Shown here piece after piece: positions 1 through 14,316 of a DNA stretch of 64,000 nt. The translations under genes were made by a program, and so were the position numbers. The notes below the pieces were generated by a model. The model was not told where the DNA came from and ran no database searches. It saw only the letters and a program-made list of their open reading frames with translations. This DNA is from Rhodanobacter sp. DHG33 (GTDB lineage: Bacteria; Pseudomonadota; Gammaproteobacteria; Xanthomonadales; Rhodanobacteraceae): contig NZ_JACYXM010000004.1 of NCBI RefSeq assembly GCF_014843005.1, forward strand, positions 2,530 through 66,529, read 5' to 3'. Positions within the stretch are counted from its first letter, which is position 1. Each line of letters opens with the position of its first letter.

Positions 1-1
1 T

Positions 2-1291
2 GCACTGGAAGACACGACCGCGTCCGACGCGCTGGCCGCGACTTTGCGTGCCCACCTCAGTGCCTGCCTCCCCGACTACATGGTCCCGGCAGCCTTCGTG
101 CAACTGGACGCGCTGCCCCTGACGCCCAACGGCAAGCTCGACCGCAAGGCCTTGCCTGCACCCGGCGACACGGCCTACGCACGCCAGGCCTACGAGCCAC
201 CCCAAGGGGAGATCGAACAAACCCTCGCCGGCATCTGGGAAGAGCTGCTCGGCCTCCAGCAGGTCAGTCGCCACGACAACTTCTTCGAGGTCGGTGGCCA
301 TTCCCTGATCGCCGTGCAACTTGCCAGCCAAGCCAAGAGCAATGGCCTCAAGCTCAACGTAAACCAGATATTCCAAAGCCCTCAACTAAAAAAACTAGCA
401 AAAATAATTACGGAGAGCCCTTCGCATCCCAATGAGATCAATGCAATCCCAATTCGAACAACTGGCACTCAATCGCCACTTTTCTTCTTACCATCGGGTA
501 CAGGCGACTATTCCTATGCCTTCGAATTGGCGCGAGATCTCAACATAGATCTCCCCGTCTATGCATTGCCATGGCAATCGATACATGAAGTGCCCCCTAT
601 TACCATGGAGGTCATGACGGCCCGAATGGTGGCTATGATACGAGTAATTCAGCCACAAGGACCATACCGGTTAGCTAGTTACTCATCTGGTGGAATATTG
701 GCATATGCCGTCGCCCAGCATTTGCTGAACATTGATCAGACAGTCTCATTTATCGGCCTGATCGATGTAAGCTTGCTTCCTGAAAAGCCCACTCAATCGC
801 CAACAACGGACAAACACATGGTGTTCAATCGGATTGAGTCGAATGAGCATTTTGACGACTCTCATAAGTTGACCGATGAATTATCATTCAAACAATTGAT
901 CAAAGAAAACCAGCAACTAAATGCAGCTCTATCACCTAAATTTCACGACGCACAAGACGAGAACATGTTTTGGGAACGAGCCAGTCATTTCAATTTGAAT
1001 ATAATCCCATCATATCAAATACCAGCATTGCCTGTAACAATTCACCAATTTTATGCAATTGAAGCTCTGCCATTAGCCCAGGAAAGAATTTTTCACAGCG
1101 ACGAAGTCGCCGCGTCAGCCAACACTACGATAACAGAACTGCAGTTACCCACAAAAGGCTGGGAACGCGTGCTACCAATATCCAGTATTCATCTAACCCC
1201 TATTCCCGGAAACCATCTCACGATGATGATGGATTCTTGCAACCGGGCTGTTTTAGGTCATTACTTGTCGGAAATACTTGAGGCGCGCTGA
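2..1291 (+). CDS. Non-ribosomal peptide synthetase, C-terminal part of last module (A end, PCP, thioesterase); 5' end outside window
   Basis: This is the 3' end of a synthetase that assembles a peptide from amino acids and releases it through a thioesterase. The reading frame is open from the first base, so the start lies upstream. The first 50 residues are the end of an adenylation domain with its A10 motif (NGKLDR). A carrier domain follows, with DNFFEVGGHSL; the serine at 302-304 would carry phosphopantetheine. The last 290 residues are a type I thioesterase, with LASYSSGG (serine codon 683-685), a downstream Asp (LIDVS) and a C-terminal His (PGNHLTMM). GxSxG is here SxSxG. The 5' third is GC-rich like the chromosome; from about base 360 it becomes AT-rich. 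An exporter and a carrier-activating transferase lie nearby. The product cannot be predicted from this fragment. Confidence 0.95.
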   Translation, partial: ALEDTTASDALAATLRAHLSACLPDYMVPAAFVQLDALPLTPNGKLDRKALPAPGDTAYARQAYEPPQGEIEQTLAGIWEELLGLQQVSRHDNFFEVGGHSLIAVQLASQAKSNGLKLNVNQIFQSPQLKKLAKIITESPSHPNEINAIPIRTTGTQSPLFFLPSGTGDYSYAFELARDLNIDLPVYALPWQSIHEVPPITMEVMTARMVAMIRVIQPQGPYRLASYSSGGILAYAVAQHLLNIDQTVSFIGLIDVSLLPEKPTQSPTTDKHMVFNRIESNEHFDDSHKLTDELSFKQLIKENQQLNAALSPKFHDAQDENMFWERASHFNLNIIPSYQIPALPVTIHQFYAIEALPLAQERIFHSDEVAASANTTITELQLPTKGWERVLPISSIHLTPIPGNHLTMMMDSCNRAVLGHYLSEILEAR

Positions 1292-1476
1292 ATTGTCGTG
1301 ATGCGTCAGATAATGAAAGGTCGGCGCCTGTCGATCCACCTGATACTGGATGGACTGCCTGTGTATAAACTGGAGGTGTACACGATTACGTCGATGAATT
1401 GGAGGGCAAGCTGACCTTGCGCTTCCTGCCGAGCCACGTTTCGGACTTAAATTCCAACCAGCCGGCATTGAGTTAA
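1292..1476 (+). mobile_element. IS630-family transposase remnant (frameshifted C-terminal fragment)
   Basis: Directly after the synthetase stop, and in the same frame, the translation reads MRQIMKGRRLSIHLILDG and then LPVYK, the IS630-type core of the second catalytic Asp region. At about 1381 the frame shifts and continues HDYVDELEGKLTLRFLPSHV followed by SDLN, matching the usual LxLxFLPPYSPxLNP segment. A stop at 1474 ends it. No N-terminal part or inverted repeats are visible, so this is a dead fragment. Its abutment on the synthetase stop suggests an old insertion or deletion scar at the end of that gene. Confidence 0.7.
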
Positions 1477-1791
1477 GCTAAGCGCATCGGCATGATGCGC
1501 AGTCCGCTGCGCGGCAGTCGAGAAACCAGCCGACCGTGTACATGTGCAACTGCCCGACATCGCTGCTCGACCACAATTGACGTGCTCGTTTTTCAGGCAT
1601 CCAAGTGTCGCCCATATTTCTGACTTACGAGTAAACCAATCAGCCCCCCACAAAAGCCAGGGCAATTCGTTTCGCCGTCAGCCCGTTATCGATAGAAATT
1701 TGAGCGACGCTGCACGCTAAAGCTAAGCGTACAATGAATGCCTATATAAAGCCCGGTCAATCTAATACCGCCTTACGAAGAAGGATTTACC
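1477..1791. other. Intergenic stretch before the ABC exporter, no gene recognised
   Basis: This AT-richer stretch holds only short open frames without recognisable similarity. It should contain the exporter promoter, but I cannot point to a convincing -35/-10 pair. Just before 1792 there is a good ribosome-binding site (AAGAAGGA, about 7 bases before the ATG). Confidence 0.5.
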
Positions 1792-3402
1792 ATGCTATTT
1801 CGTTTCGTTTGCTGCTACCGATACCGGTGTGGCGCCATCGTGTTGTTATCGCTCGCCAGTGCTGTCGCCACTATGCTGGCTCTTGGTCAGATCAATCGCT
1901 TGGCGGGTACCGTGTCAACTGTTGACAAGCTATCACCTTGGTTATATTGCGGCGGCATCCTCTTGCTCGTGCTTCTCATAAACATTGCCCTCCAGGCACT
2001 GCTCGCGGTGTTTGGCGCAGATCTCGTTGCTCATCTCCGCAAGGAACTCTCCGCGCGGTTCGTTCGTCTCGATTATGAGCGATTGGTCATGCAAAGACAT
2101 GTTGTAGCCGCCGCCCTTGTGCAAGATCTTGGCCGAATTGCACCGCTCGTGCTGATAGGCCCACAACTTGCTTACAACGCCGTGCTGACGGTTTTGTGTA
2201 CAGGTTATCTGTTGTCCGTTTCCCCTGTGTTGGCTTGTGCCATCCTTGCACTGTTGCCGATTCCAATTATTGGAGCGCTAGTGTTTGCTCGGAAGGTCAA
2301 TGCGCGCTTCTACGTACTCCGCGCGGTCGAAGAACGAGTGCTCTCGCAACTGCATGCCATTAGTGGAGGCAAGAAAGAAATGACTCTCAACAGGCAGCGT
2401 GCGTGGCAATTTATGGCTGAGGGGCTTAACCCGGCGATCAGCGAAGCACGCCAGCACATGGCGGGGGTTCACCTAAGCTGGGGAACGATGTCGGCTCTTG
2501 CTTCGGTGGTGACTCTTGGATCTGTCTTGTTTGCACTGGCCGTTGGCCAGTATTTGAAGCTCCCCGTTGAAACCATTGTTAAATTTGTTATCTCGGGGCT
2601 ATTTCTGTCCGGCCCCATCAGCTCACTTATAAGTGTTGGGCCGCAAATCAACGCGGGATTAGCTAGCATTCGTCACCTCAACAAAGCTGGTTTAGATCTT
2701 GAGACGGAGCTACCATTACATAGTATCATCAGCACGCCGGGTGGCTCGTGGCGGCAGATTGAAGCACGGAACCTCGTATATCGCTATAGTCAACCCGGCG
2801 AGGTCGGCGTGGTGATTGGGCCTATCGATTTGAAGGTGCGACGCGGCGAAGTATTGTTCATTGTGGGCGGTAATGGTAGCGGAAAATCGACGCTGCTTCT
2901 TTTACTGAGCGCCCTTCTAACTCCTGAATCTGGCAGCCTAACAATTGACGGGCGCCCAGTAGCTGAGGAGCAAGAGAGTTACCGCGCACTTTTCTGCGGA
3001 GTCTTTGATGATTTCCACCTCTTCCCTGATATCGTGCGCTCTCCAGATGTCGACGCATCAGACGTTTATCTACGTGCGCTCTTAGGTCGCTTTGGTCTCT
3101 CAGAGCGGGTAACCGTGTGTGAAGGTACTTTCTCAAACTTGGCGCTTTCGACGGGACAGCGCAAGCGACTTGCCCTTATTCAATGTCTTGCAGAAGGTCG
3201 AGATATTCTGTTCTTCGACGAATGGGCGGCCGACCAAGATGTCGATTTTCGAGCCATTTTCTATCGCGAATTGATCCCAGAATTTCGCGCTGCCGGAAAG
3301 ACTGTCATTGCCATTAGCCATGACGATCGTTATTTCGATGTTGCCGATCGCATCATCGAACTGGAAGCGGGACGCATCCGTTACGATCATGTCCGTGTTT
3401 AA
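1792..3402 (+). CDS. Cyclic-peptide exporter, SyrD/PvdE-type ABC transporter (fused membrane and ATPase domains)
   Basis: This 536-residue protein is a half-transporter that would sit in the inner membrane and export a peptide product using ATP. Residues 1-310 carry about six hydrophobic segments. The ATPase domain has Walker A GGNGSGKST (359-367), signature LSTGQRKRL (452-460), Walker B DILFFDE (471-477) and a switch His (510). LSTGQRKR in place of LSGGQ is characteristic of the cyclic-peptide transporter group containing SyrD (syringomycin) and PvdE (pyoverdine). The ATG at 1792 has the site AAGAAGGA. It lies 500 bp after the synthetase in the same direction, so it most likely exports that synthetase's product. 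Its codon use is AT-richer than the core genome, like the rest of the island. Confidence 0.92.
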   Translation: MLFRFVCCYRYRCGAIVLLSLASAVATMLALGQINRLAGTVSTVDKLSPWLYCGGILLLVLLINIALQALLAVFGADLVAHLRKELSARFVRLDYERLVMQRHVVAAALVQDLGRIAPLVLIGPQLAYNAVLTVLCTGYLLSVSPVLACAILALLPIPIIGALVFARKVNARFYVLRAVEERVLSQLHAISGGKKEMTLNRQRAWQFMAEGLNPAISEARQHMAGVHLSWGTMSALASVVTLGSVLFALAVGQYLKLPVETIVKFVISGLFLSGPISSLISVGPQINAGLASIRHLNKAGLDLETELPLHSIISTPGGSWRQIEARNLVYRYSQPGEVGVVIGPIDLKVRRGEVLFIVGGNGSGKSTLLLLLSALLTPESGSLTIDGRPVAEEQESYRALFCGVFDDFHLFPDIVRSPDVDASDVYLRALLGRFGLSERVTVCEGTFSNLALSTGQRKRLALIQCLAEGRDILFFDEWAADQDVDFRAIFYRELIPEFRAAGKTVIAISHDDRYFDVADRIIELEAGRIRYDHVRV

Positions 3403-3459
3403 CCAGTAGCGTCATGGCATTACTTGAAAATATATCTATTGACGCCTCCTGATTAGGGT

Positions 3460-4500
3460 TGAACCTCAGTCAAGGAAATCTTTCCACCATGCCAAGCAGA
3501 CACCTCCAAAGTAGAACCGCTGCTGACTTGTTGACGACACTTGTCAAACGCCAGGTCGCCGAGCGATTCATGGAGGCGCTGCTCTATGTAGTCGAGCATC
3601 CACCAGTAAACAGCTTCATGCATATCCTTCAGGCAGGCAAATGGGCGTTGGTCGCCCCCCCTCGCGGAAGATGCGGCGAAGCGTTAGATATAGGCGTTCT
3701 GATTAGGCATACCGAGCTGGATGTATTGGATGGCTACGCCATTTACCTTGAGCCACTGGATAGAAATCTCACCCTGGAACTCCGGATTATTGTCCGACCG
3801 TAGCACCTACGATAGTCCATAGTCTTGCTTGATCTGCTCGAAGGTGCGTACCGAGCGCGTCGCAGTGATCGAGATGTCGACCTCAATATGCAACGCCTCT
3901 TGGTTGAAGCCATCCACGACGTTGAAGGCACTGAAGCTCCGGCCGCAGGCCGGCATTTCACTCATGAAATCGATCGACCACACCAGGCCAGATAATTGCA
4001 GCACGTTCAGAGCTCGCGTTCGCGTTTGTGAAGTCTAGGCCGGGCGGCACGCCAGAGATGGAGTTTCATCGCCTTGTATACCCGGTAGACCCATTTGGGA
4101 TTCCACTCCAGTCGCGTCTTTCACAGCTGCGAGCAGCCTCCCAGAAGCCTCGACTGAGGTACTTTTCGACCAGCAGCCTGGCTAAAGCAGTGATGAGCTC
4201 GGCATCACACACCGTTCAGCCTAATGCCTGCCGGCGGTGCGCAGCCTGCGATAACCCAACGCACTCGCAGAACCCGCGTAACCGCCGCGTGTCACCTTCA
4301 CCGGGTACCGCACCGCCTCGCGCTTGTCCGTCAGTCTTACATTTTGCGATCAGATCTTTCATCGCAACGTTGTCGGACCTACATTCGCTTCATTGCGCGT
4401 TCTCGGTCTTGAACCCCTTTACGCTTGAGGTCGGACGGCCGTGGTACCGCCATACTTACTCCTCCACTGGCAGCACATCGACGCGCTGACGCAGTCAGCC
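3460..4500 (-). mobile_element. Degenerate IS3-family element (broken orfA/orfB)
   Basis: Read on the minus strand, broken frames reproduce an IS3-type transposase in order. From the right come VWRYHGRP and an ENAQ...ALKDLI-like orfA tail, then RGFWRLL. At 3807-4004 follows LVWSIDFMSEMPACGRSF and NVVDGFNQEALHIEVDIS (first catalytic Asp region). Next are SDNNPEFQG (second Asp) and IQYIQLGMPNQNAYI, and finally YIEQRLHESLGDLA near 3550. Several in-frame stops and frameshifts interrupt it, one of them where the catalytic Glu (normally ERFN) should be. It cannot be active. Exact ends and terminal repeats are not identifiable. Confidence 0.8.
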
Positions 4501-4705
4501 GACAGATGCCCTTGACTGGCAAGCTGGCATTAGCCTGACTTAAAGATCAAGATGATCTACATCCCACAAACTTCAATTTCTTCATGAAACCTCCTAGCTC
4601 GGGAACAATGCCGGAAAGCTCTACTTAGGAGATGTCAATCTAACGGAGGGGTACGCGGCAGCATAGAAGGAGGATGAATCCACTGTAGTCCACAAGAGTC
4701 TTCTC

Positions 4706-5596
4706 ATGGCAATAAATCCCATTCGGTCCAAGCCGGTTTATCGCTAGCCGCGTTCGTCGGGCAGTACAACTAAAACCAAGTGCCGTCGCGCCCTGTACAG
4801 AGCTCGCCCGAAGGTTTTCGCTACCCCGCCTGAGGCAGTTGCCGCTGCTCGATGTTCCGCCGCGATCGACAGGCTTATTACCAGTGCCGTACCTGCCAAT
4901 ACCAGACCACACTAATCACAAGCACAGCGTTCGCGTCTACCAAACTACCGTTGCGCATATGGTTCATCGCAATCTATGCCTAGAACGCGAGTAAACTAAT
5001 GTGGCCGCGCTCAAACTGATACGCCAGTTGAGGGCCTGCCATTGCACGACGCGGTGGTTCAAGCACAAGATCATGCAAATCATGATGAACGCGAAGAAGC
5101 CTGCAGGCTGGCCAGTTTTGTCCAAATAGACGATGCAACCTGGGCAGCCAGCGCGGTGGCGGTAAGCCCGGATACGGTTTGGAAAACAAGCAGCCCATCC
5201 TGATCTTGGCGGCCATCGGCACTACCCCTGAACATCCTATGCCTGTCGTCATCAAACCGGTCTAGGCGTTCGACGACGCCTCGCTGCGCGATTTCGACCA
5301 ATGGCATCTCACTCCCGAGTCCAGGTATTCATCGGTGGGTTGTGAACATTCCGAATGCTTCACCGATGCTAAATATCCGCACACAGTGTTGGACGCCAGT
5401 GGCGGTCAAGCGGCGACCGAAGCGAAAGGCGCGTTGGGCGAACATTGTGCTCGGCAACGTCAAACGGGCGATCAGCGGCTGCTATCATGCCATCCGTCAA
5501 GCCAAGTATGCACGGCACTATCTCGCCAAAGCCGCATACCGCTTCGACCACTGGTTCGCCTGCACGCGCTATTACCGCGACTGGCATGGGCCATAA
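4706..5596 (+). mobile_element. Degenerate IS1595-family transposase
   Basis: Starting at an ATG (4706), three frames together spell an IS1595-type transposase. The N-terminal piece is close to NPIRFQAGLSLAAFVGQY. The zinc-ribbon region reads AYYQCRTCQYQTTLITSTAF and ASTKLPLRIWFIAIYA. Then comes a decayed helix region (LKLIRQLR, FKHKIMQIMM). The C-terminal part (5342-5596) reads WANIVLGNVKRAISGCYHAI and KYARHYLAKAAYRFDHWF. Stops after AIYA and later shifts show that it is dead. It sits in the same direction as the exporter and separates it from the transferase gene. Confidence 0.8.
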
Positions 5597-5688
5597 CGCT
5601 CTGCGCTCCTTGTCCGAGTAGACTCTGCGGGGCAGACGATTTTCTTCGTGAAGGTTCGCCGCTAATCAGAAGTAAGTGAGCCTCACTA

Positions 5689-6477
5689 TCACCATGTAAC
5701 GTAGGTAAGTACTGTATCTGGGCGAACAAATGTGAACCCAGCTACATACGCTTGGTCACGGCAGAACTGATCACTTAATGTTTCATTCAAAACAAGAACC
5801 AATCTCTGTTTTCGGGCATCCAGCTCAACCACTTGTACCACAGAAAAATCGAAAATGCGGCCAACCGTTGCATAAGCGGCCTTATAGAAGCTTTCCTTCG
5901 CAGAGAAAACGATAGTGAGTGCCATCTGCAACGAAAGCTCCTGCAAAGAATCCAAATAGTCCAACTCATGCTCCCCGACTACCACTTTGGAGACAGATTG
6001 GCAGGTTTCTTGGTCTATCACTTGCTCCACATCAATTCCGATGCCCTGGTATACGCCACGCCACGTCGTCACCGCGGCTGCAATCCCGTGTGTATGCGTA
6101 ATACTACCGATCACACCACTTGGCCAGACAGGCTGCCGCTGCGCGCCGATTGGAACTTGCTCGCCCGCTAATCCAAGCATTGAAAGCGCATTGCGAGTGA
6201 CAAAGCGGCCAAAAAAAAATTCCGCCTGTCGCTTATAAACGCTGCTCTGGATAGATTCAGGATAGGCGATACCGGCCTGGGCAAACGCAGCATGCGTGAA
6301 GCTATCGGGCAGAAACTCGACGATATGCGCAAGAATGGGAACCGATTCTTTCGCAATTGCAACTTGTCGGCACACCAATCCTACAGATTCAAAACAAGGG
6401 ACGGACATAAATGGGGCATTCGAAGATTGCTCCAAGCCGAAATTCGCCCTTCGTATCACGATAACGTGCCCTGACAA
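5689..6477 (-). CDS. 4'-phosphopantetheinyl transferase, EntD type
   Basis: This 262-residue enzyme would transfer phosphopantetheine from coenzyme A to the serine of carrier domains, switching the nearby synthetase from apo to holo form. Diagnostic segments are RQAEFFFGRFVTRNAL, QRQPVWPSGVIGSITHT, the magnesium-binding GIDVEQ and FSAKESFYKAAY, in the order and spacing of the EntD branch of the Sfp superfamily. The longest frame starts at a TTG (6475-6477) with a weak GAGG upstream; an ATG at codon 24 (6408) is an alternative start. It is transcribed toward the IS remnants, opposite to the synthetase, and shares the island's AT-rich composition. No operon partner is present. Confidence 0.92.
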   Translation of the reverse strand: MSGHVIVIRRANFGLEQSSNAPFMSVPCFESVGLVCRQVAIAKESVPILAHIVEFLPDSFTHAAFAQAGIAYPESIQSSVYKRQAEFFFGRFVTRNALSMLGLAGEQVPIGAQRQPVWPSGVIGSITHTHGIAAAVTTWRGVYQGIGIDVEQVIDQETCQSVSKVVVGEHELDYLDSLQELSLQMALTIVFSAKESFYKAAYATVGRIFDFSVVQVVELDARKQRLVLVLNETLSDQFCRDQAYVAGFTFVRPDTVLTYVTW

Positions 6478-6499
6478 ATTGTTAAGTTTCGCCTCGCAG

Positions 6500-6880
6500 C
6501 TGCGACAATGATACTCCCATCAATGATCGCCTTGAGAGCGTCGGGAACACTCTGCCGCAGGCCTCTGTTGGCATCGACATGTGGACAATCTACCAATGCA
6601 GACCGATGGTGGCTACACTCGGGAAGCCATACGCGGCCATGTAGCCTTTTAGATAAGCCTGGTTGCTCGCGTCAATGGACTTTGCGTGCCCAATCGCCTT
6701 TTAGGACGGTTTGGGAAATTCAATCGCAATGACGTTGCTCGCGTCCACATCTGTCTTCGCCTTTCGGACAAAATCGGATGCAACCGCGGGATCGGAAGGC
6801 GTGACCTTCGGAGTTGCCTTGACGTCATGGTACGCAGCCAACCGGTGGTGTCCGGGCACTCCCTCTGGATCACCACGTGT
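6500..6880 (-). pseudogene. Decayed gene of unknown function
   Basis: On the minus strand a protein-like stretch reads ATPKVTPSDPAVASDFVRKA...VIAIEFPKPS, stop, then KAIGHAKSIDASNQAYLKGY and MAAYGFPSVATIGLHW, stop. After a frame change it continues VDANRGLRQSVPDALKAIID. The periodic charged/hydrophobic pattern and the continuity across two stops and a shift suggest a formerly real gene. I do not recognise the family with certainty. No start or intact version is present in the window. Confidence 0.4.
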
Positions 6881-7427
6881 CCAAGAAGACGTCAGCCATC
6901 GTCAGCAACGCTATATGTCGACGCGAGGATCGCGACTATGACGAGCGTGAACAGAGTTTCTGGAGCATCCTTGCCTTTCTTGATCGCCCATTGTGCTCAA
7001 TTATCTATCACGATGATCGAATAGCAGATCCAGCCTGCATCTTGTTCGGATCCAACCCATTTTCTTGCAATCCACGACCAGTGAAATGGCTGGCAAGGGC
7101 GGCACCTCTGACGGTGGCCGCCACACATCATTGCCCGCAAGGCGAACCCGCGTTGTTCCAGATTCGCATCCTGTGCGCCAAAGCTGGCGCCGACATGACC
7201 AACGCCAACAACCTCCGCGAGGTATAACAGCAACTGTGGCATGCCAACCCACCGATGATGGAACACTACATACACAACCAGCACGGCTCGAAGGTCACAC
7301 CGACGCGCTAAAAACCATTCCGCAATTCTTCCAACCTCTAGCTTGGGCAAAGACGGCTAGCCCTATCGAAACGACATATTGCGGAACGCAAATCAGTACA
7401 AGCACATGACCAGGAACGATTTTCGCA
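6881..7427. other. Island right flank, no recognisable gene
   Basis: Several open frames of 70-120 codons exist on both strands, but none shows a conserved motif, ribosome-binding site or plausible codon pattern. The stretch is probably decayed mobile DNA between the island genes and the tRNA fragment. Confidence 0.5.
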
Positions 7428-7486
7428 CGGAATTAAAATCCGCTTCTGGCGACAGAGTGTAGGTTCGAGTCCTATCACCGGTACCA
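7428..7486 (+). tRNA. 3' fragment of tRNA-Leu(UAA), probable attachment-site scar
   Basis: The sequence reproduces a class II tRNA from the anticodon loop to the CCA. The loop ATTAAAA holds anticodon TAA at 7434-7436. The 3' anticodon strand TCCGC follows, then a long variable arm (TCTG/CAGA), a T arm GTAGG-TTCGAGT-CCTAT, the acceptor strand CACCGGT and ACCA (7483-7486). Upstream there is no D arm or 5' acceptor strand, so the gene is not functional. Similarity begins within the anticodon loop, a usual crossover point for tyrosine recombinases acting on tRNA genes. It sits where AT-rich island DNA gives way to GC-rich chromosome. Confidence 0.8.
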
Positions 7487-7516
7487 AGTGAGAAAGCACA
7501 CAGCTGCATCCACAAA

Positions 7517-7541
7517 GCCGCCATCGAGCGGCTTTTGTTTT
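7517..7541 (+). terminator. Rho-independent terminator behind the tRNA-Leu fragment
   Basis: GCCGC-CATCGA-GCGGC forms a 5-bp GC stem followed by TTTTGTTTT. It lies 31 bases after the CCA of the tRNA fragment and fits the native terminator of the original tRNA gene. Confidence 0.7.
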
Positions 7542-7640
7542 GCTCCGCCATGACCGCGCTGGCCCGCAATCCAGGCCCAATGGCTCAATCGGCGGACTCT
7601 CGTCGCACACCGCTCGGCGGTGTAGCGGCCCACGGATCCA

Positions 7641-8543
7641 TCACGCGTCGAACGGCCGCTTGCCCAGCATCTCGGTCACGTGATCCACGAAACAGGTGAT
7701 CCGCGCGGCCAGCGCGGTGTTGCGGTAGTAGACCGCGTTGATCGATTGGCGCACGTCCAGCGTCTGCCGCGGGAAGAGCTGCACCAGCCTGCCGCTGCGG
7801 CGATCCTCGCGCGTCATGAAGTCCGACAGGCAGACGATGCCCAGGCCCGCCAGGGCCATGTGCCGCAGCGTCTCGCCGCTGGAGGAAGCCAGCGCCGGCC
7901 GGATGCGTAGGACGTCGCCGCACGCGTCGCGCAGCGGCCAGTCGTTCAAGGCTTCGGGCTGGGTGAAGCCGAGCAGGGTGTGCTGTGCGAGCTTGCTAGG
8001 CCCCGCCGGTGTGCCATGGCGCTTGAGATACGCAGGGCTCGCCAACACCCGCACGCGGCTGACACCCACGGGGCGGGCATGCAGGCTGGAATCCTTGAGC
8101 ACGCCGATGCGGAAGGCCACGTCCGTGTGCTTCTGGATCAGGTCGATGATGCCCTCGTTCGAATTCAGCTCCAGCTCCACCTCGGGGTAGCGCGCGCGGA
8201 AGCTGGCCAGCAACGGCACCAGCACGTGCAGCATGAAGGGCGTGGCCGCATCCACGCGCAGCCGCCCGGCCGGGCGCATCCGCCGCGCCGCCATGTGCTC
8301 CTCGGCCTCGTCCACCGAGGCCAGGATGGCGCGCGCATGCTGCAGGAAACTGTCGCCCTCCTCGGTCAGCTCCAGGCGTCGCGTGGTACGGCGCAGCAGG
8401 GTGGTCTGCAGCTTTTCCTCCAGCCGGCCCAGCGTGCGGCTGGTGGCCGAGATCGTCAGCCCCAGCCGTTCCGACGCGGCGGTGATCGAGCCCGTGTCCA
8501 CGATGGCCACGAAGGCCTGCAGTTCGTCCAGGGTCGTTTTCAT
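7641..8543 (-). CDS. LysR-family transcriptional regulator
   Basis: This 300-residue regulator has an N-terminal winged helix-turn-helix (DELQAFVAIVDTGSITAASE, then LGLTISATSRTLGRLEEKL) and a periplasmic-binding-like effector domain from about residue 90. I start it at the ATG at 8541-8543; a TTG four codons upstream (8555) is the only longer option. It is divergent from the MFS pump gene with 75 bp between the starts, so it probably controls that pump and the following reductase from the shared region. A LysR gene (yafC) also neighbours dkgB in Escherichia coli, which supports the functional link. The effector is unknown. Confidence 0.9.
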   Translation of the reverse strand: MKTTLDELQAFVAIVDTGSITAASERLGLTISATSRTLGRLEEKLQTTLLRRTTRRLELTEEGDSFLQHARAILASVDEAEEHMAARRMRPAGRLRVDAATPFMLHVLVPLLASFRARYPEVELELNSNEGIIDLIQKHTDVAFRIGVLKDSSLHARPVGVSRVRVLASPAYLKRHGTPAGPSKLAQHTLLGFTQPEALNDWPLRDACGDVLRIRPALASSSGETLRHMALAGLGIVCLSDFMTREDRRSGRLVQLFPRQTLDVRQSINAVYYRNTALAARITCFVDHVTEMLGKRPFDA

Positions 8544-8618
8544 TGTTGATTCCAAGTCAAATGAATTTGGCCGATACCTGACTTAATCCGCAAATATTAA
8601 CCGGGCACACTACGCGGC

Positions 8619-9797
8619 ATGAAATCGCCACGCCTAGCCCTGCTCTCCCTCGCCGTCGGTGCGTTCGCCATCGGCACCACCGAATTCACCCCGATGGGCC
8701 TGCTGCCCGTGATCGCCGACGGCGTCCACGTGAGCATTCCCCGCGCGGGCATGCTGGTCTCCGCCTATGCGGTGGGCGTCATGGTCGGCGCGCCGGTGAT
8801 GACACTGCTGTTCAGCCGCTTCGGCAAGCGCGCGGCGCTGATGTCGCTGATGCTCATCTTCACCCTCGGCAACCTGCTGTCGGCATTCGCGCCCAGCTAT
8901 ACGACCCTGCTGCTGTCGCGCCTCATCACCAGCCTGAATCACGGCGCCTTCTTCGGCATCGGCGCGGTGGTGGCGGCCAGCGTCGTGCCCAGGGAAAAGC
9001 AGGCCAGCGCGATCGCCGCCATGTTCATGGGCCTGACCGTGGCCAACGTCGGCGGCGTGCCGGCGGCGACCTGGGTCGGGCAGCAGGTGGGCTGGCGCCT
9101 CGCCTTTGGCGGCACGGCCATGCTCGGCCTGCTCACCATCGCGTCGCTGTGGCTGGCGCTGCCCAAGGGCGAGCCCGGCACGCGTCCCGACGTGCGCCGC
9201 GAACTGACGGTGCTGACGCGTCCCGAGGTGCTGCTGGCCATGGGCACCACCGTGCTCGGTGCGGGCGCCATGTTTGCGCTCTACACCTACGTGGCGCCGG
9301 TGCTCACCGATATCACGCATGCCAGCCCGGGCTTCGTGGCCTTCGCGCTGGTGCTGATCGGCGTCGGTTTCACGCTGGGCAACAGCCTGGGCGGCCGCCT
9401 GGCCGACTGGTCGCTGGATGGCGCCGCCAAGCTCATCCTTGCGTCGCTCGCGCTGATCATGGCCGTGCTGCCGCTGGTGCTGACCACGCATGTGGGCGCG
9501 GCGATCGGCCTGGTGGTCTGGGGCGCCGCGTCCTTCGGCATCGTGCCGCCGGTGCAGATGCGCGTGATGCAGGCTGCGGCGCAGGCGCCGGGGCTGGCAT
9601 CGTCCGTCAACATCGGCGCATTCAACCTCGGCAACGCAGTCGGCGCCGCGCTCGGCGGAGCCGTCATCAGCCAAGGGCTGGGTTATTCCGCGGTGCTCTG
9701 GGCGGGTGCGGCGCTCGCCGCCGGCGGCTTCGGCCTGGTCTGGCTCGGCCACAGCCATGCCCGCCGCCGTATGCCGCTGCCCTCTTCTTCTGTCTGA
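8619..9797 (+). CDS. MFS efflux transporter, DHA1 (AraJ/YdhP-like)
   Basis: This 392-residue inner-membrane protein has about twelve hydrophobic helices. The N-terminus (LALLSLAVGAFAIGTTEFTP) and RFGKRAAL in the loop after helix 2 are typical of drug:proton antiporters of the DHA1 group, close to YdhP/AraJ. The substrate is unknown; such pumps export drugs or sugars. The aldo-keto reductase gene follows 15 bp later in the same direction, so the two are probably one operon. The divergent LysR gene is the likely regulator. The ATG is 75 bp from the LysR start. Confidence 0.9.
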   Translation: MKSPRLALLSLAVGAFAIGTTEFTPMGLLPVIADGVHVSIPRAGMLVSAYAVGVMVGAPVMTLLFSRFGKRAALMSLMLIFTLGNLLSAFAPSYTTLLLSRLITSLNHGAFFGIGAVVAASVVPREKQASAIAAMFMGLTVANVGGVPAATWVGQQVGWRLAFGGTAMLGLLTIASLWLALPKGEPGTRPDVRRELTVLTRPEVLLAMGTTVLGAGAMFALYTYVAPVLTDITHASPGFVAFALVLIGVGFTLGNSLGGRLADWSLDGAAKLILASLALIMAVLPLVLTTHVGAAIGLVVWGAASFGIVPPVQMRVMQAAAQAPGLASSVNIGAFNLGNAVGAALGGAVISQGLGYSAVLWAGAALAAGGFGLVWLGHSHARRRMPLPSSSV

Positions 9798-9812
9798 GCG
9801 AAGGAAGCCTCG

Positions 9813-10619
9813 ATGAACACCATCCCCTCTTTTGGCGTCGGCACATTCCGCCTGACCGGCCAGACCGTGATCGACTCGGTGCGCAACGCGCTGGACGTGG
9901 GCTATCGCGCCATCGACACGGCGCAGATCTACGGCAACGAGGCCGAAGTCGGCCAGGCGATCGCCGAGAGCGGCGTGCAGCGCTCCGAGCTGTTCGTGAC
10001 CACCAAGATCTGGACCGACAACTACGCCAGGGCCAAGCTGATACCCAGCCTGCGCGAGAGCCTGGCGAAGCTGCGCACCGACCATGTGGACCTGACCCTG
10101 ATTCACTGGCCCGCGCCGGGCAACGGCGTGGCGCTGCCCGAATACATGGGGGCGCTGGCCGAAGCCAAGGCACTCGGCCTGACCCGCCGTATCGGCATTT
10201 CCAACTTCAACATCGAGCTGACGAAGCAGGCCTTGGCCGTGGTCGGCAAGGGCGAGATCGCCACCAACCAGATCGAGCTGAGCCCCTATCTGCAGAACCG
10301 CACGCTGACCGCCTTCCTCGAGGAGCAGGGCATCGTCGTGACTTCGTACATGACGCTGGCCTACGGCAAGGTGCTGAAGGACCCGGTGCTGGCGAAGATC
10401 GCGGACAAGCACCGGGCCACCGTGGCGCAGGTCGCGCTGGCCTGGGCGCTGCAGCTGGGCTACGCGGTGATTCCGTCCTCGACCAAGCGCGAGAACCTGG
10501 CCAGCAACCTGCTCGCCCGCGACCTGAAACTCGATGCCGACGACATGGCGCAGATCGCCGCGCTCGAACGCAACGGCCGCGAAGTCAGCTCCAAGGGTTT
10601 GTCGCCCGCATGGGACTGA
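9813..10619 (+). CDS. dkgB: Aldo-keto reductase, 2,5-diketo-D-gluconate reductase B type
   Basis: This 268-residue cytosolic enzyme reduces aldehydes and ketones with NADPH. DkgB of Escherichia coli (267 residues) acts on 2,5-diketo-gluconate and methylglyoxal. The catalytic tetrad is visible: Asp35 and Tyr40 in [11 protein letters not shown], Lys65 in TTKIW and His98 in LIHWP. The cofactor-binding end has [13 protein letters not shown]. The ribosome-binding site is GCGAAGGAAG before the ATG. It is the second gene after the MFS pump, and a strong terminator follows 100 bp downstream. A detoxification pair (reduce and export) is a reasonable inference. Confidence 0.88.
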
Positions 10620-10721
10620 GGCGACGTATGCAGCATTGATGCGGGCCCTCCAGGCCATGCAGCGGATTTTCCGCCCGGGCACAGGACCCGAAAGCTGCCA
10701 TCGGCCATCACTCGCAAGCGC

Positions 10722-10749
10722 AAAAAGCCCGCATAACTGCGGGCTTTTT
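10722..10749 (+). terminator. Rho-independent terminator after dkgB
   Basis: AAAAAGCCCGCA-TAAC-TGCGGGCTTTTT is a perfect 12-bp stem with a 4-base loop. It has a T run on one strand and an A run on the other, so it can work in both directions. Confidence 0.9.
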
Positions 10750-10845
10750 CGCATCGGAAGGCCATCTTCCACCGGGCCGCGGATACGGCCCAAGGCGTTG
10801 AAGCGCCCTTTCACCAGGGCCATTCCGCCCATGTTGCGTCATGAC

Positions 10846-10861
10846 TTGACACCGGTGTCAA
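10846..10861. promoter_or_regulatory. Perfect palindrome TTGACACCGGTGTCAA, probable LacI-family operator
   Basis: The 16 bases are fully self-complementary with a central CG, the layout of operators bound by LacI/GalR proteins. They contain a TTGACA hexamer that could be a -35 box. The site ends 15 bp before the first ATG of the glucokinase gene. The only LacI-type regulator in the window is encoded at 22014-23027 at the end of the same sugar locus. I saw no second copy of this exact palindrome in the locus. Confidence 0.65.
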
Positions 10862-10876
10862 TTACGTTTCAAGCTG

Positions 10877-11953
10877 ATGGCGAATCCATTGCGGGGGAGC
10901 GCGCTGGACGTGGCAATCGACCATTCGGATCGACTGGCGGGGGTAACGACGACGCCGTTTCTGGCTGCCGACATCGGCGGCACGCACGCCCGTGTTGCGC
11001 TGGTGCGTGCCGCGCGCGGCGAGCGCCAGGGTATCGAGACGCTCGCCTACCGCAAGTTCGTGTGCGCGGAGTACCCGGGGGTGCCGGAACTGCTGCAGGC
11101 CTTCGTCGATGCCGAGGTCCAGGTTCCGGTGCGCCACTGCGTGCTGGCCTGTGCGGGCCAACTGCTGGGCGACGAGGTCGCGAACGACAACCTGGCCTGG
11201 CCCATCCGCCTGTCGCCCTTGCGCCAGGCGCTGGCGCTGGACGACGTCGCCATGCTCAACGACTTCGAAGCGCTGGGCTATGCGCTCGATGGCGAGCTCT
11301 CGCGTGGCGGCCGCCACCTGTGCGGACCCGACACGCATGGCGGCGGGCCGACCCTGGTGCTCGGCCCGGGCACCGGCCTTGGCGCAGCAGCGCACGTGCC
11401 GGGCCCCGCGGGCGGCTTCGTGCTGACCACGGAAGCGGGCCAGATGGACTTCGCACCGAGCTCGGTCCGCGAACGCGAAATCCTCGCGCACCTGGCGCCC
11501 GACGGCGGCTACGTGGAGTGCGAGCGCATCGTCTCGGGTCCGGGGCTGCTGACCGCGTACACGGCCCTGTGCGCATTGGATGGCGAGATACCGAAGCTGG
11601 CGACGCCCGAAGCCGTCACCGCCGCAGCCGCCGCACGCAGCGACGCGCATGCCGTGGAAGCCGTGGAAATTTTCTGCGCATCGCTGGGCAGCGTGGCCGG
11701 CAACCTCGCGCTCGCCTTCATGGCCACCGGCGGCGTGTACCTGGCCGGCGGATTCCTGTCGTCGATGTACGCACTGCTCAAGCACAGCGCCTTCGAAGCG
11801 CGCTTCCTGCACGGACGCAGCGCGCACGCCCTGCTGTCGCAGGTGCCGGTATGGGTGACGGAACACGGCCACCACGGCGTGCTGGGCGCGGCGCGCTGGT
11901 ATCTCCAGCGCGTCCTGTCGAGCGAAGCCATGGCCGATGGGATGGCCGCATGA
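10877..11953 (+). CDS. glk: Glucokinase
   Basis: This 358-residue cytosolic kinase phosphorylates glucose to glucose 6-phosphate with ATP. It belongs to the bacterial Glk family, with the phosphate-binding FLAADIGGTHARVALV near residue 28, MLNDFEALGYA, VLGPGTGLG and a C-terminal ASLGSVAGNLAL. The ATG at 10877 has no clear ribosome-binding site and is only 15 bp from the operator palindrome. A GTG at 10910 is preceded by GGGGGAG and would give the shorter N-terminus usual in the family; it may be the true start. The stop overlaps the hexosaminidase start (ATGA at 11950), so the two are translationally coupled. In this setting Glk would act on glucose or an amino sugar released from oligosaccharides. 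Confidence 0.88.
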   Translation: MANPLRGSALDVAIDHSDRLAGVTTTPFLAADIGGTHARVALVRAARGERQGIETLAYRKFVCAEYPGVPELLQAFVDAEVQVPVRHCVLACAGQLLGDEVANDNLAWPIRLSPLRQALALDDVAMLNDFEALGYALDGELSRGGRHLCGPDTHGGGPTLVLGPGTGLGAAAHVPGPAGGFVLTTEAGQMDFAPSSVREREILAHLAPDGGYVECERIVSGPGLLTAYTALCALDGEIPKLATPEAVTAAAAARSDAHAVEAVEIFCASLGSVAGNLALAFMATGGVYLAGGFLSSMYALLKHSAFEARFLHGRSAHALLSQVPVWVTEHGHHGVLGAARWYLQRVLSSEAMADGMAA

Positions 11954-14316
11954 GCCGCATCACGCCAGCAAAGCTTTGCCGGAGCGTGGCCGCCGCATGG
12001 CTGGCGGCAAGCGGCGCGACTGCAACAGGGGCAACAACGGCGGCAGCGGCAGCGCCCGCCGCACCTGCGCAGGCTGCGTGGTCGCTGATGCCGCAGCCTG
12101 CACGGGTGCGCCCCGCTTCGGGCACGCTCGAGATTGCGGATGGCGCCGAGGTCGCGGTGCACGGCGCCGAACCCGCGCAGGTGCAATCCATCGCGCAACG
12201 CTTCCTGCAGTTGCTGGCCGGCACCCGCGGCCTGCACCTGCACATGGCGGCTGCAGACAGTACGCATACCGCGATCACATTCGAGGTCGATCCGCACGCT
12301 GACGTTGCAGGCGACGCCGGCTATCGCATCGCGGTGGATGGCCACGGCATCGTGATCACCGCACGCACCGCGCGCGGCGCGTTCTACGGCAGCGTCACGC
12401 TATGGCAGCTGCTGACTCCGCCGGGCTGGAAGAGCGGCGCACCGGCAGAAGTGGCCGAGGGCACCATCGACGACCATCCGCGCTTCGCATGGCGCGCGCT
12501 GCTGCTCGATTCCGGACGGCACTACCAGAGCGCGTCCGACATCAAGAAGCTGATCGACTGGATGTCGCTCAACAAGCTCGACGTGCTGCTCTGGCACGTG
12601 ACCGAAGACCAGGGCTGGCGGCTCGACATCCCCCGCTATCCCGAACTCGTGAAAGTCGGGGCATGCCGCAAGGCGGTGGGGCTGGACAGCGAGCTGACCG
12701 GTTCCCCCGACAAGCCCTACTGCGGCTACTACACCGAAGCCGAAGTGCGCGACATCGTGCGCTACGCCGCCGAGCGCTACGTCGACGTGGTGCCGGAAAT
12801 CGACCTGCCCGGCCATTCGCAGGCGGCCATCGCGGCTTATCCGTGGCTGGGCGTCACCGGCACGCGGCCGCCCGTGTGGACCGAGTGGGGCGTCAGCCCG
12901 TGGCTGCTCAATCCCAACGAAAAAACCTTGCGTTTCGTCGACGACGTGCTCGATGAAGTGATGCGCCTGTTCCCTTCCCGCTACATCTCGATCGGCGGCG
13001 ACGAAGCCGACAAGCAGCAATGGAACGCATCGCCCGAAGTACGCGCACAGATGCAGACGCTGGGCCTCGCGAACATGGACCAGCTGCAGGGCTGGTTCAC
13101 CAACGAGATCGCCGCACACCTCATCGAACACGGACGCACGCCGGTCGGCTGGGACGACGAGCTGGTTGCCGGCGCCACGCTGCCGGCCTCGCAGGTCGTG
13201 ATGTCGTGGCATGGCGACAACCACGAACGCGTGGCGCTGCAAGCGATCCGCCAAGGCCACGACGTGGTGATGACGCCACAGGAATCGCTGTATTTCGACC
13301 ACTACCAGTCCGACCTGCCCGACGAATGGGCAGGACCGCCGCCCGCAGCAACGTTGCGGCAGGCCTACGACACCATCGTCGTTCCGAACGGTGCGAGCGC
13401 GGCCGAAGCGAAACACATCATCGGCGTGCAGGGCGGCCTGTGGACCGAGCAGATGCCCACGTTCGCGCACGACCAGCATGCGGTGTTCCCGCGCCTCGCG
13501 GCGCTGTCGGAACTCGGATGGTCACCGGCGGGGGCGCATGACTGGAATGGTTTCCTGCGACGCATGCCGGCCGAACTGGCGCGCTACCGCGCACTCGGCA
13601 TCGACTATGCCGACAGCGCATTCGCTCCCGCCTTCCGCGTGGCAGCGGCGGCCGACGGCAAGTTCCGGATCGAACTGTCCAACCAGGCGAACTTCGGCAC
13701 GATCCGCTACACCACGAACGGCTCCGCCCCGACCGACCGCTCCGCGCCCTACACCCGTCCACTGACTTTGCCGGCCAAGACGAGCCTGCAGGCCGCGACG
13801 TTCGCACCGGACGGTTTCGAACTCGCCGCGCCACGCATGCAGGCGCTGGATGAAACGACCCTGCTGGGCCGCGACGGCAGCGCGCTCGCCACATGCTCCC
13901 ATCAACCGGCCTCGCGTCTGGACGGCAGCCGTTCGCCGGGGGGATCGAAGCCCGTCTATGCCGTCGACATCGGCAATGCGTGCTGGCTGTGGCCGCGGGC
14001 ACGGTTGGATGGCGTCAGGCATGTCGCCCTGGTCGTCGAACGCATGGCCTGGCGCTTCGGTGACGAAGCGAAGGACGCCGTCGCGCGCCGCAAGTCCAGC
14101 GCAGCGGGCGAGTTCGAGATCCACACCGGCTCATGCATGGGTCCCTTGCTTGCCAGCGTGCCGCTGCAACGCGCGGCGCAGGCGACGGGGCAAACGCGTC
14201 TCGAAGCAGAGCTCGCGGTGCCGGCGGGGGCCGGCCTCCGCGATCTGTGTGTCTTTGCCACCGGCGATCCGCGCGATGGCCAGTGGGCGCTGGAACGAAT
14301 GACGTTTTCGAAATAG
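11950..14316 (+). CDS. Beta-N-acetylhexosaminidase, GH20, secreted
   Basis: This 788-residue exo-glycosidase removes terminal N-acetylglucosamine or N-acetylgalactosamine from chito-oligosaccharides and glycans. An Ala-rich signal segment spans roughly residues 1-42. A GH20b-like domain follows, then the catalytic barrel from about residue 180. That barrel has LDSGRHYQSASDIKKLIDWM, LLWHVTEDQGWRL, VPEIDLPGHSQAA and the Asp351-Glu352 pair in ISIGGDEADK used in substrate-assisted catalysis. The C-terminal third has a chitobiase-type tail and a sequence-diverse segment after residue 650. The start is the ATG at 11950, which overlaps the glucokinase stop (ATGA). It probably works in the periplasm or outside, feeding the TonB receptor and transporters of the locus. 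Confidence 0.92.
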   Translation: MSRITPAKLCRSVAAAWLAASGATATGATTAAAAAPAAPAQAAWSLMPQPARVRPASGTLEIADGAEVAVHGAEPAQVQSIAQRFLQLLAGTRGLHLHMAAADSTHTAITFEVDPHADVAGDAGYRIAVDGHGIVITARTARGAFYGSVTLWQLLTPPGWKSGAPAEVAEGTIDDHPRFAWRALLLDSGRHYQSASDIKKLIDWMSLNKLDVLLWHVTEDQGWRLDIPRYPELVKVGACRKAVGLDSELTGSPDKPYCGYYTEAEVRDIVRYAAERYVDVVPEIDLPGHSQAAIAAYPWLGVTGTRPPVWTEWGVSPWLLNPNEKTLRFVDDVLDEVMRLFPSRYISIGGDEADKQQWNASPEVRAQMQTLGLANMDQLQGWFTNEIAAHLIEHGRTPVGWDDELVAGATLPASQVVMSWHGDNHERVALQAIRQGHDVVMTPQESLYFDHYQSDLPDEWAGPPPAATLRQAYDTIVVPNGASAAEAKHIIGVQGGLWTEQMPTFAHDQHAVFPRLAALSELGWSPAGAHDWNGFLRRMPAELARYRALGIDYADSAFAPAFRVAAAADGKFRIELSNQANFGTIRYTTNGSAPTDRSAPYTRPLTLPAKTSLQAATFAPDGFELAAPRMQALDETTLLGRDGSALATCSHQPASRLDGSRSPGGSKPVYAVDIGNACWLWPRARLDGVRHVALVVERMAWRFGDEAKDAVARRKSSAAGEFEIHTGSCMGPLLASVPLQRAAQATGQTRLEAELAVPAGAGLRDLCVFATGDPRDGQWALERMTFSK

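Follow-up and report, generated by a model that had tools for sequence, protein, structure and literature searches.

The window, a 64,000-nucleotide stretch of the Rhodanobacter sp. DHG33 genome, is part of contig C38 in an assembly of 43 contigs. The contig starts within a peptide synthetase, followed by its thioesterase, an exporter and a phosphopantetheinyl transferase, up to a fragment of a tRNA-Leu gene; GC content is 0.528 in window 1-7427 vs 0.674 in 7428-64000. The features at this boundary are as follows:

44..1291, + strand: peptide synthetase end with a carrier domain and a thioesterase (PF00550, PF00975), predicted island cargo
1792..3402, + strand: ABC transporter (PF00005), likely a peptide exporter, predicted island cargo
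5689..6477, − strand: 4'-phosphopantetheinyl transferase (PF17837, PF01648), predicted island cargo
7144..7311, + strand: C-terminal remnant of a tyrosine integrase (26/56 residues identical, E 7e-11; profile i-E 2.7e-11)
7318..7326, + strand: first arm of an inverted repeat, TTCCGCAAT, putative integrase arm site (same place past the integrase stop in five relatives)
7378..7386, + strand: second arm of the inverted repeat, ATTGCGGAA, putative integrase arm site (repeat search, layout of the relatives)
7428..7486, + strand: 3' part of tRNA-Leu(CAA), read as a displaced fragment in attR (93% to positions 28-86 of tRNA-Leu(CAA) on contig C22; att-site alignment), with CGGA at 7428-7431, the anticodon loop ATTAAAA at 7432-7438 and the CCA end at 7486
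7514..7541, + strand: terminator-like hairpin and T-rich tail, probably the host's original (closer to the flank in the related genome G008, 58/78, than to that on C22, 47/78)
7641..8555, − strand: LysR-type regulator (PF03466, PF00126), the gene that opens the right chromosomal flank (94.6% to G008, where it adjoins the intact tRNA)

A preliminary description had placed synthetase genes and IS debris in AT-rich DNA left of the fragment and ordinary GC-rich chromosome to its right. The right side is as described, and so are the lower GC and the synthetase genes on the left; the IS debris did not hold up, as no second copy of 3403-7143 was found in the genome and the ORFs at 3459-3803, 4028-4489, 6877-7227 and 7065-7409 matched no Pfam family. 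What could be identified in this degraded stretch is the integrase remnant.

The fragment derives from tRNA-Leu(CAA) by sequence comparison

From the anticodon stem to the CCA, window 7428-7486 is 93% identical to an intact tRNA-Leu gene over positions 28-86 of the latter (E 6e-19; 3.2e-19 in a second search), and a terminator then follows. ARAGORN calls no tRNA at 7428-7486, so the 5' half is absent from the fragment, as had been claimed; a Rfam search of window 1-12000 likewise found no tRNA and returned two matches, both under their gathering scores. The fold of the fragment itself does not surpass that of shuffled sequences (z -0.12), and the downstream terminator, also part of the preliminary description, was recovered as a hairpin at 7514-7535 with a T-rich tail (fold z -3.1).

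The fragment had been assigned to tRNA-Leu(UAA), of which the tRNA-Leu 3' part stands and the anticodon does not. The genome holds 47 tRNA matches, and the ten longest candidates, which were checked, include five tRNA-Leu genes, one each for CAA, TAG, TAA, CAG and GAG. The sole second match to the fragment in the genome is tRNA-Leu(CAA), at C22:5350-5435; the tRNA-Leu(UAA) gene of the genome (L008) is unmatched by it, and the orthologous site in G008 is also a tRNA-Leu(CAA), and the UAA identity was dropped. The fragment carries TTA in its loop, inside a sequence that is otherwise that of the CAA gene in the att-site alignment, and two of its seven loop positions differ from those of the intact gene. 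On this alignment, we take the fragment to derive from tRNA-Leu(CAA), not UAA. There is also a compensated difference in the T-stem, where one pair is T-A in the fragment vs G-C in the intact C22 gene; across the 11 other same-genus genomes aligned, this pair is T-A in seven and G-C in four, and G008 has G-C. The T-A pair is unaccounted for by a simple model in which the fragment is the host's own 3' half.

An uninterrupted site in a related genome

Window 7428-8200 matched 14 of 15 same-genus genomes (own genome counted), and in G008 only, the tRNA part adjoins the LysR gene. There, on one contig (locus L029), positions 1-1560 correspond to C22 6911-5349 (87.7%), 1501-1622 to window 7428-7548 (87.7%) and 1632-3122 to window 7641-9131 (94.6%). 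Both flanks thus lie around one intact tRNA-Leu(CAA), the single match to the tRNA in that genome, and form an uninterrupted site, seen in this one relative only. The orientation of the fragment agrees with the flanks in G008, and the two ends sit on different contigs (C22 and C38) in the window's genome.

The window's exporter is absent from G008 at E 1e-100, and likewise from 11 of 11 other same-genus genomes searched. Because G008 has the empty site and the exporter is missing from these same-genus genomes, the insertion is best assigned to the lineage that led to the window's genome. The expectation that a relative lacking the synthetase would carry one intact tRNA-Leu joined to the terminator was borne out in G008, which lacks the exporter at this threshold and where the LysR gene follows. 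The intact tRNA-Leu that was expected at the other end of the island was also found, on C22, although as the CAA isoacceptor, and the integrase lies as a remnant beside the fragment rather than beside the intact gene. The preliminary reading as the attR of a tRNA-using integrase, with the intact tRNA at the other end, is well matched by C22:5350-5435 and the G008 site. By these comparisons, the fragment appears to be the displaced attR of an island that carries a peptide-synthetase cluster and whose other end would be at C22:5349.

Past the CCA, columns agree in 58/78 between the fragment and G008, in 47/78 between the fragment and C22 and in 48/81 between C22 and G008; it therefore seems that the fragment kept the host's terminator and that the intact gene ends in island-borne sequence. 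The intact C22 tRNA is followed by a hairpin of its own (fold z -1.5). The fragment would thus record the 3' end and terminator of the host tRNA as they were before the island replaced them.

An integrase remnant and its attachment layout

When the integrase of another genome of the family (G153) was used as query against window 1-9000, one significant match was obtained, at 7144-7308 (E 7e-11; 3e-10 in another search), with a match length of only 56 residues. A profile built from 11 of 12 homologues (L127, incomplete, was omitted) gave i-E 2.7e-11 at the remnant and otherwise no value below 1 across six stretches, each read in six frames. The remnant has lost its N-terminal part, carries an in-frame stop at 7225-7227 before its own stop at 7309-7311, and by eye has a cysteine at the position of the second arginine of the relatives' RDLR motif, an arginine that we take to be catalytic. 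No complete integrase was found at the readable ends: the genome has six PF00589 matches, none in C22:1-5349 or C38:1-9956. The integrase of the island looks dead, and because of the missing N-terminal part and the in-frame stop, the island has probably lost its mobility and become fixed.

Downstream of the remnant, the inverted repeat TTCCGCAAT / ATTGCGGAA has arm cores that begin 10 and 70 bases past the last integrase codon, and in five relatives the arms lie at 10/70, 9/69, 7/67, 14/75 and 7/67, with one base changed in each arm of the first relative and one in the second arm of the last. The distance from the integrase stop to the core is 116 bases in the window vs 117, 116, 114, 122 and 115 in these relatives. 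A role of the arms as integrase binding sites is suggested by this conserved spacing.

Integrase homologues were found at E 1e-40 in 12 of 195 family genomes, the window's own genome not among them. For five of the 12, a tRNA-Leu 3' half lies in sense after the integrase; six others face a tRNA that is intact, namely Leu(UAA) four times and Leu(CAA) and Ser(CGA) once each, and in each of these six TTGCGGA occurs as two direct copies 19 bases apart. At these loci (L118, L120, L123, L125, L126, L127) the direct repeat replaces the inverted pair, so that one integrase family has two attachment layouts; a further homologue, L119, has neither. The window shows the layout of G153, with a homologous integrase, an arm pair and a core at fixed distance. 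In the aligned att sites, the shared part starts at the anticodon arm or loop, and that of the fragment likewise starts at CGGA and the loop, which would place the integrase crossover in the anticodon loop. A single integrase family is seen in several genera, with an attachment layout that is fixed at leucine tRNA genes.

These data bear on two other readings of the fragment. If a deletion or a transposon had left a tRNA pseudogene, with no site-specific integration, this would fit the degraded look of the DNA to the left of the fragment and the lack of a complete integrase nearby in the PF00589 search; but the break falls at the anticodon loop, like those of the other aligned att sites, the integrase remnant and arm repeats lie at conserved distances, and there are both an intact copy and an empty site, which makes this reading scarcely credible. 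Alternatively, the attP of the element could have been of the tRNA-Leu(UAA) type and have integrated by mismatch into the CAA gene, the TAA of the loop being a trace of this event and not decay. Related integrases are indeed found at tRNA-Leu(UAA) too (4/12 face an intact one), and one locus (L121) has a fragment with TTAAAA. The intact gene, however, whose 3' half would be expected to come from the element, is of CAA type and identical to that of G008 at 86 of 86 bases, and the loop differs at another base too, A for C, as expected of decay; we consider a UAA-type attP very unlikely.

We favor, with a probability of roughly 90%, that the fragment is the displaced attR of an island that entered tRNA-Leu(CAA) by means of a tyrosine integrase, with a crossover in the anticodon loop. 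Upon entry, the 5' half of the host tRNA would have been joined to a 3' half brought in by the island together with a hairpin, which gave the intact gene now at C22:5350-5435; the 3' half and the terminator that the host had originally would have been displaced to the far end, at window 7428-7541. The integrase gene would then have lain just inside the attR end, reading toward attR, with the inverted pair of arm sites in between, and would later have decayed to leave an island, with its peptide-synthetase cluster, that is probably fixed.

Fragments of the same tRNA in other genomes

The tRNA was matched in 190 of 195 family genomes. Among the matches listed, a 3' part starting at position 25-32 occurs in at least six genomes (G000, which is the window's own, G153, G170, G169, G179 and G174), these fragment counts being lower bounds, and G144, found via its integrase, is a further case. 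The best match among those listed is the fragment itself in G169 and G179; G006 has two tRNA matches, the intact one among the matches listed, and the tRNA search gave no match in two same-genus genomes (G002 and G004). In G153, the intact tRNA-Leu(CAA) and the 3' fragment are ~40 kb apart on one contig, and a Phage_integrase protein adjoins the fragment, its stop 117 bases before the core.

A different arrangement was observed in G170 (L109: 7565-7620, 14279-14362, 14387-15580, 15674-15717), where tRNA-Leu(CAA) is interrupted in the anticodon arm by an element that does not rebuild the gene. The 5' part (1-44) and the 3' part are separated, and within the element there is another, complete tRNA-Leu(CAA), 86% identical, next to an integrase that has a SAM-like domain. 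Genes with domains suggestive of restriction or defence (GmrSD_N, RiboL-PSP-HEPN, NERD with helicase, Eco57I methyltransferase) were seen near tRNA-Leu(CAA) fragments in G169 (L110 1881-3843), G179 (L111 9976-11544) and G170 (L109 11547-13166).

Island cargo and a second tRNA site

At E 1e-100, 16 of the 194 other genomes of the family have relatives of the exporter, at 44-50% identity. The search in named genomes gave 26 loci (own genome possibly left out), and the positions of these relatives coincide with named loci in Rhodanobacter, Luteibacter and Dyella, to which genera the family therefore seems to correspond. In a plasmid collection, the matches listed (20 of 22 records) fall either within window 7648-10622, in the right flank, or on short parts of the synthetase. 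On C22, from the tRNA to the contig end, Pfam identifies an FMN dehydrogenase, a 205-aa glyoxalase-type protein and an aminotransferase; a hydroxyphenylglycine pathway considered for these three genes was dropped on these assignments, and a literature search for hydroxyphenylglycine and Xanthomonas found nothing. 'IS3-type debris' beside the C22 tRNA came from translation by eye, and was discarded as the two ORFs there have no Pfam family.

The middle of the island lies across contig breaks, and 25 of 38 contig stretches examined read N. Contig C4 carries a serine hydroxymethyltransferase-like gene and a synthetase start, and C22 overlaps it by exactly 140 bases; a single insertion would then span the gap from C22 to C38. 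An overlap of 140 bases also joins the two ends of C2, which had been considered as a circle; this was dropped, and because the C2 frames resemble tuf and its neighbours by eye, the overlap shows only the repeat length of the assembler.

C4 joins just as well to C40, a contig of a second tRNA site, and this counts against one island path. C40:1-211 equals C22:1-211 but for one base, and the overlap of C40 with C4 is likewise exactly 140 bases long, which makes C4 a shared contig. At C40:560-607 (L141) lies a 3' fragment of tRNA-Val(GAC), 48 bases long and 100% identical, and the intact tRNA-Val(GAC), at C41:3872-3946 (L100), adjoins another synthetase end. At the end of C41, beside tRNA-Val, the thioesterase region is 84% like that of C38 over 1285 bases. 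A short tRNA-Val(GAC) 3' piece was also seen elsewhere in G008 (L143 6436-6466, on G008:C26), where ARAGORN calls no tRNA.

These overlaps and the thioesterase similarity could mean that the tRNA-Leu(CAA) and tRNA-Val(GAC) islands have recombined via synthetase repeats; the fragment would still be attR, and the DNA between C22 and C38 would be a rearranged mixture. In G008, however, the flanks of C22 and C38 adjoin, and likewise those of C41 and C40, the latter on one contig with ~1.3 kb more between them. Since these flanks are neighbours in G008, a rearrangement is not seen there and not needed, and we regard recombined islands as unlikely. It may be, at somewhat less than even odds, that one genome holds sibling synthetase clusters in two islands, in the anticodon arms of tRNA-Leu(CAA) and tRNA-Val(GAC), with near-identical left ends on a shared, collapsed contig and thioesterase ends that differ by 16%. 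If so, a cluster was copied from island to island inside one genome, and parts of it were kept alike by conversion.

Comparison with known systems

Insertion of an island into tRNA-Leu(CAA), as favored here, is a well-known kind of event, and this is an ordinary island class, a tRNA island of the anticodon class with a decayed integrase. What this analysis adds is the integrase remnant beside the fragment and the att layout, with the exact boundary and a likely entry route for a peptide-synthetase cluster. A literature search for a tRNA-Leu island in Xanthomonadaceae found nothing.

Class A of the Islander database comprises tRNA-gene islands with an anticodon-centred crossover and makes up 2083 of 3919 listed islands (PMC4383910). 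As in that class, there is an intact tRNA at one end, a 3' fragment at the other, which would have the same orientation by the flanks in G008, and a tyrosine integrase; here, unlike there, the integrase is a remnant and the ends are on different contigs. As described there, the integrase filter of Islander would probably reject the window's island (PMC4383910).

In Xanthomonas, the META-B and XaPPTase loci are described as synthetase/PPTase regions beside tRNA genes, for which lateral transfer between tRNA genes has been proposed (PMC3849588). By that description they share with the window's island a synthetase, a PPTase, an ABC exporter, a transaminase, a lactate dehydrogenase and a glyoxalase-superfamily protein; the Dpg genes described for META-B, in contrast, are not among the Pfam-scanned stretches of the island's ends (PMC3849588).

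The G153 island (G153:C25:43256-83402) has the same tRNA gene, crossover, integrase family, position and att layout as the island of the window, and differs from it in that its integrase is complete.
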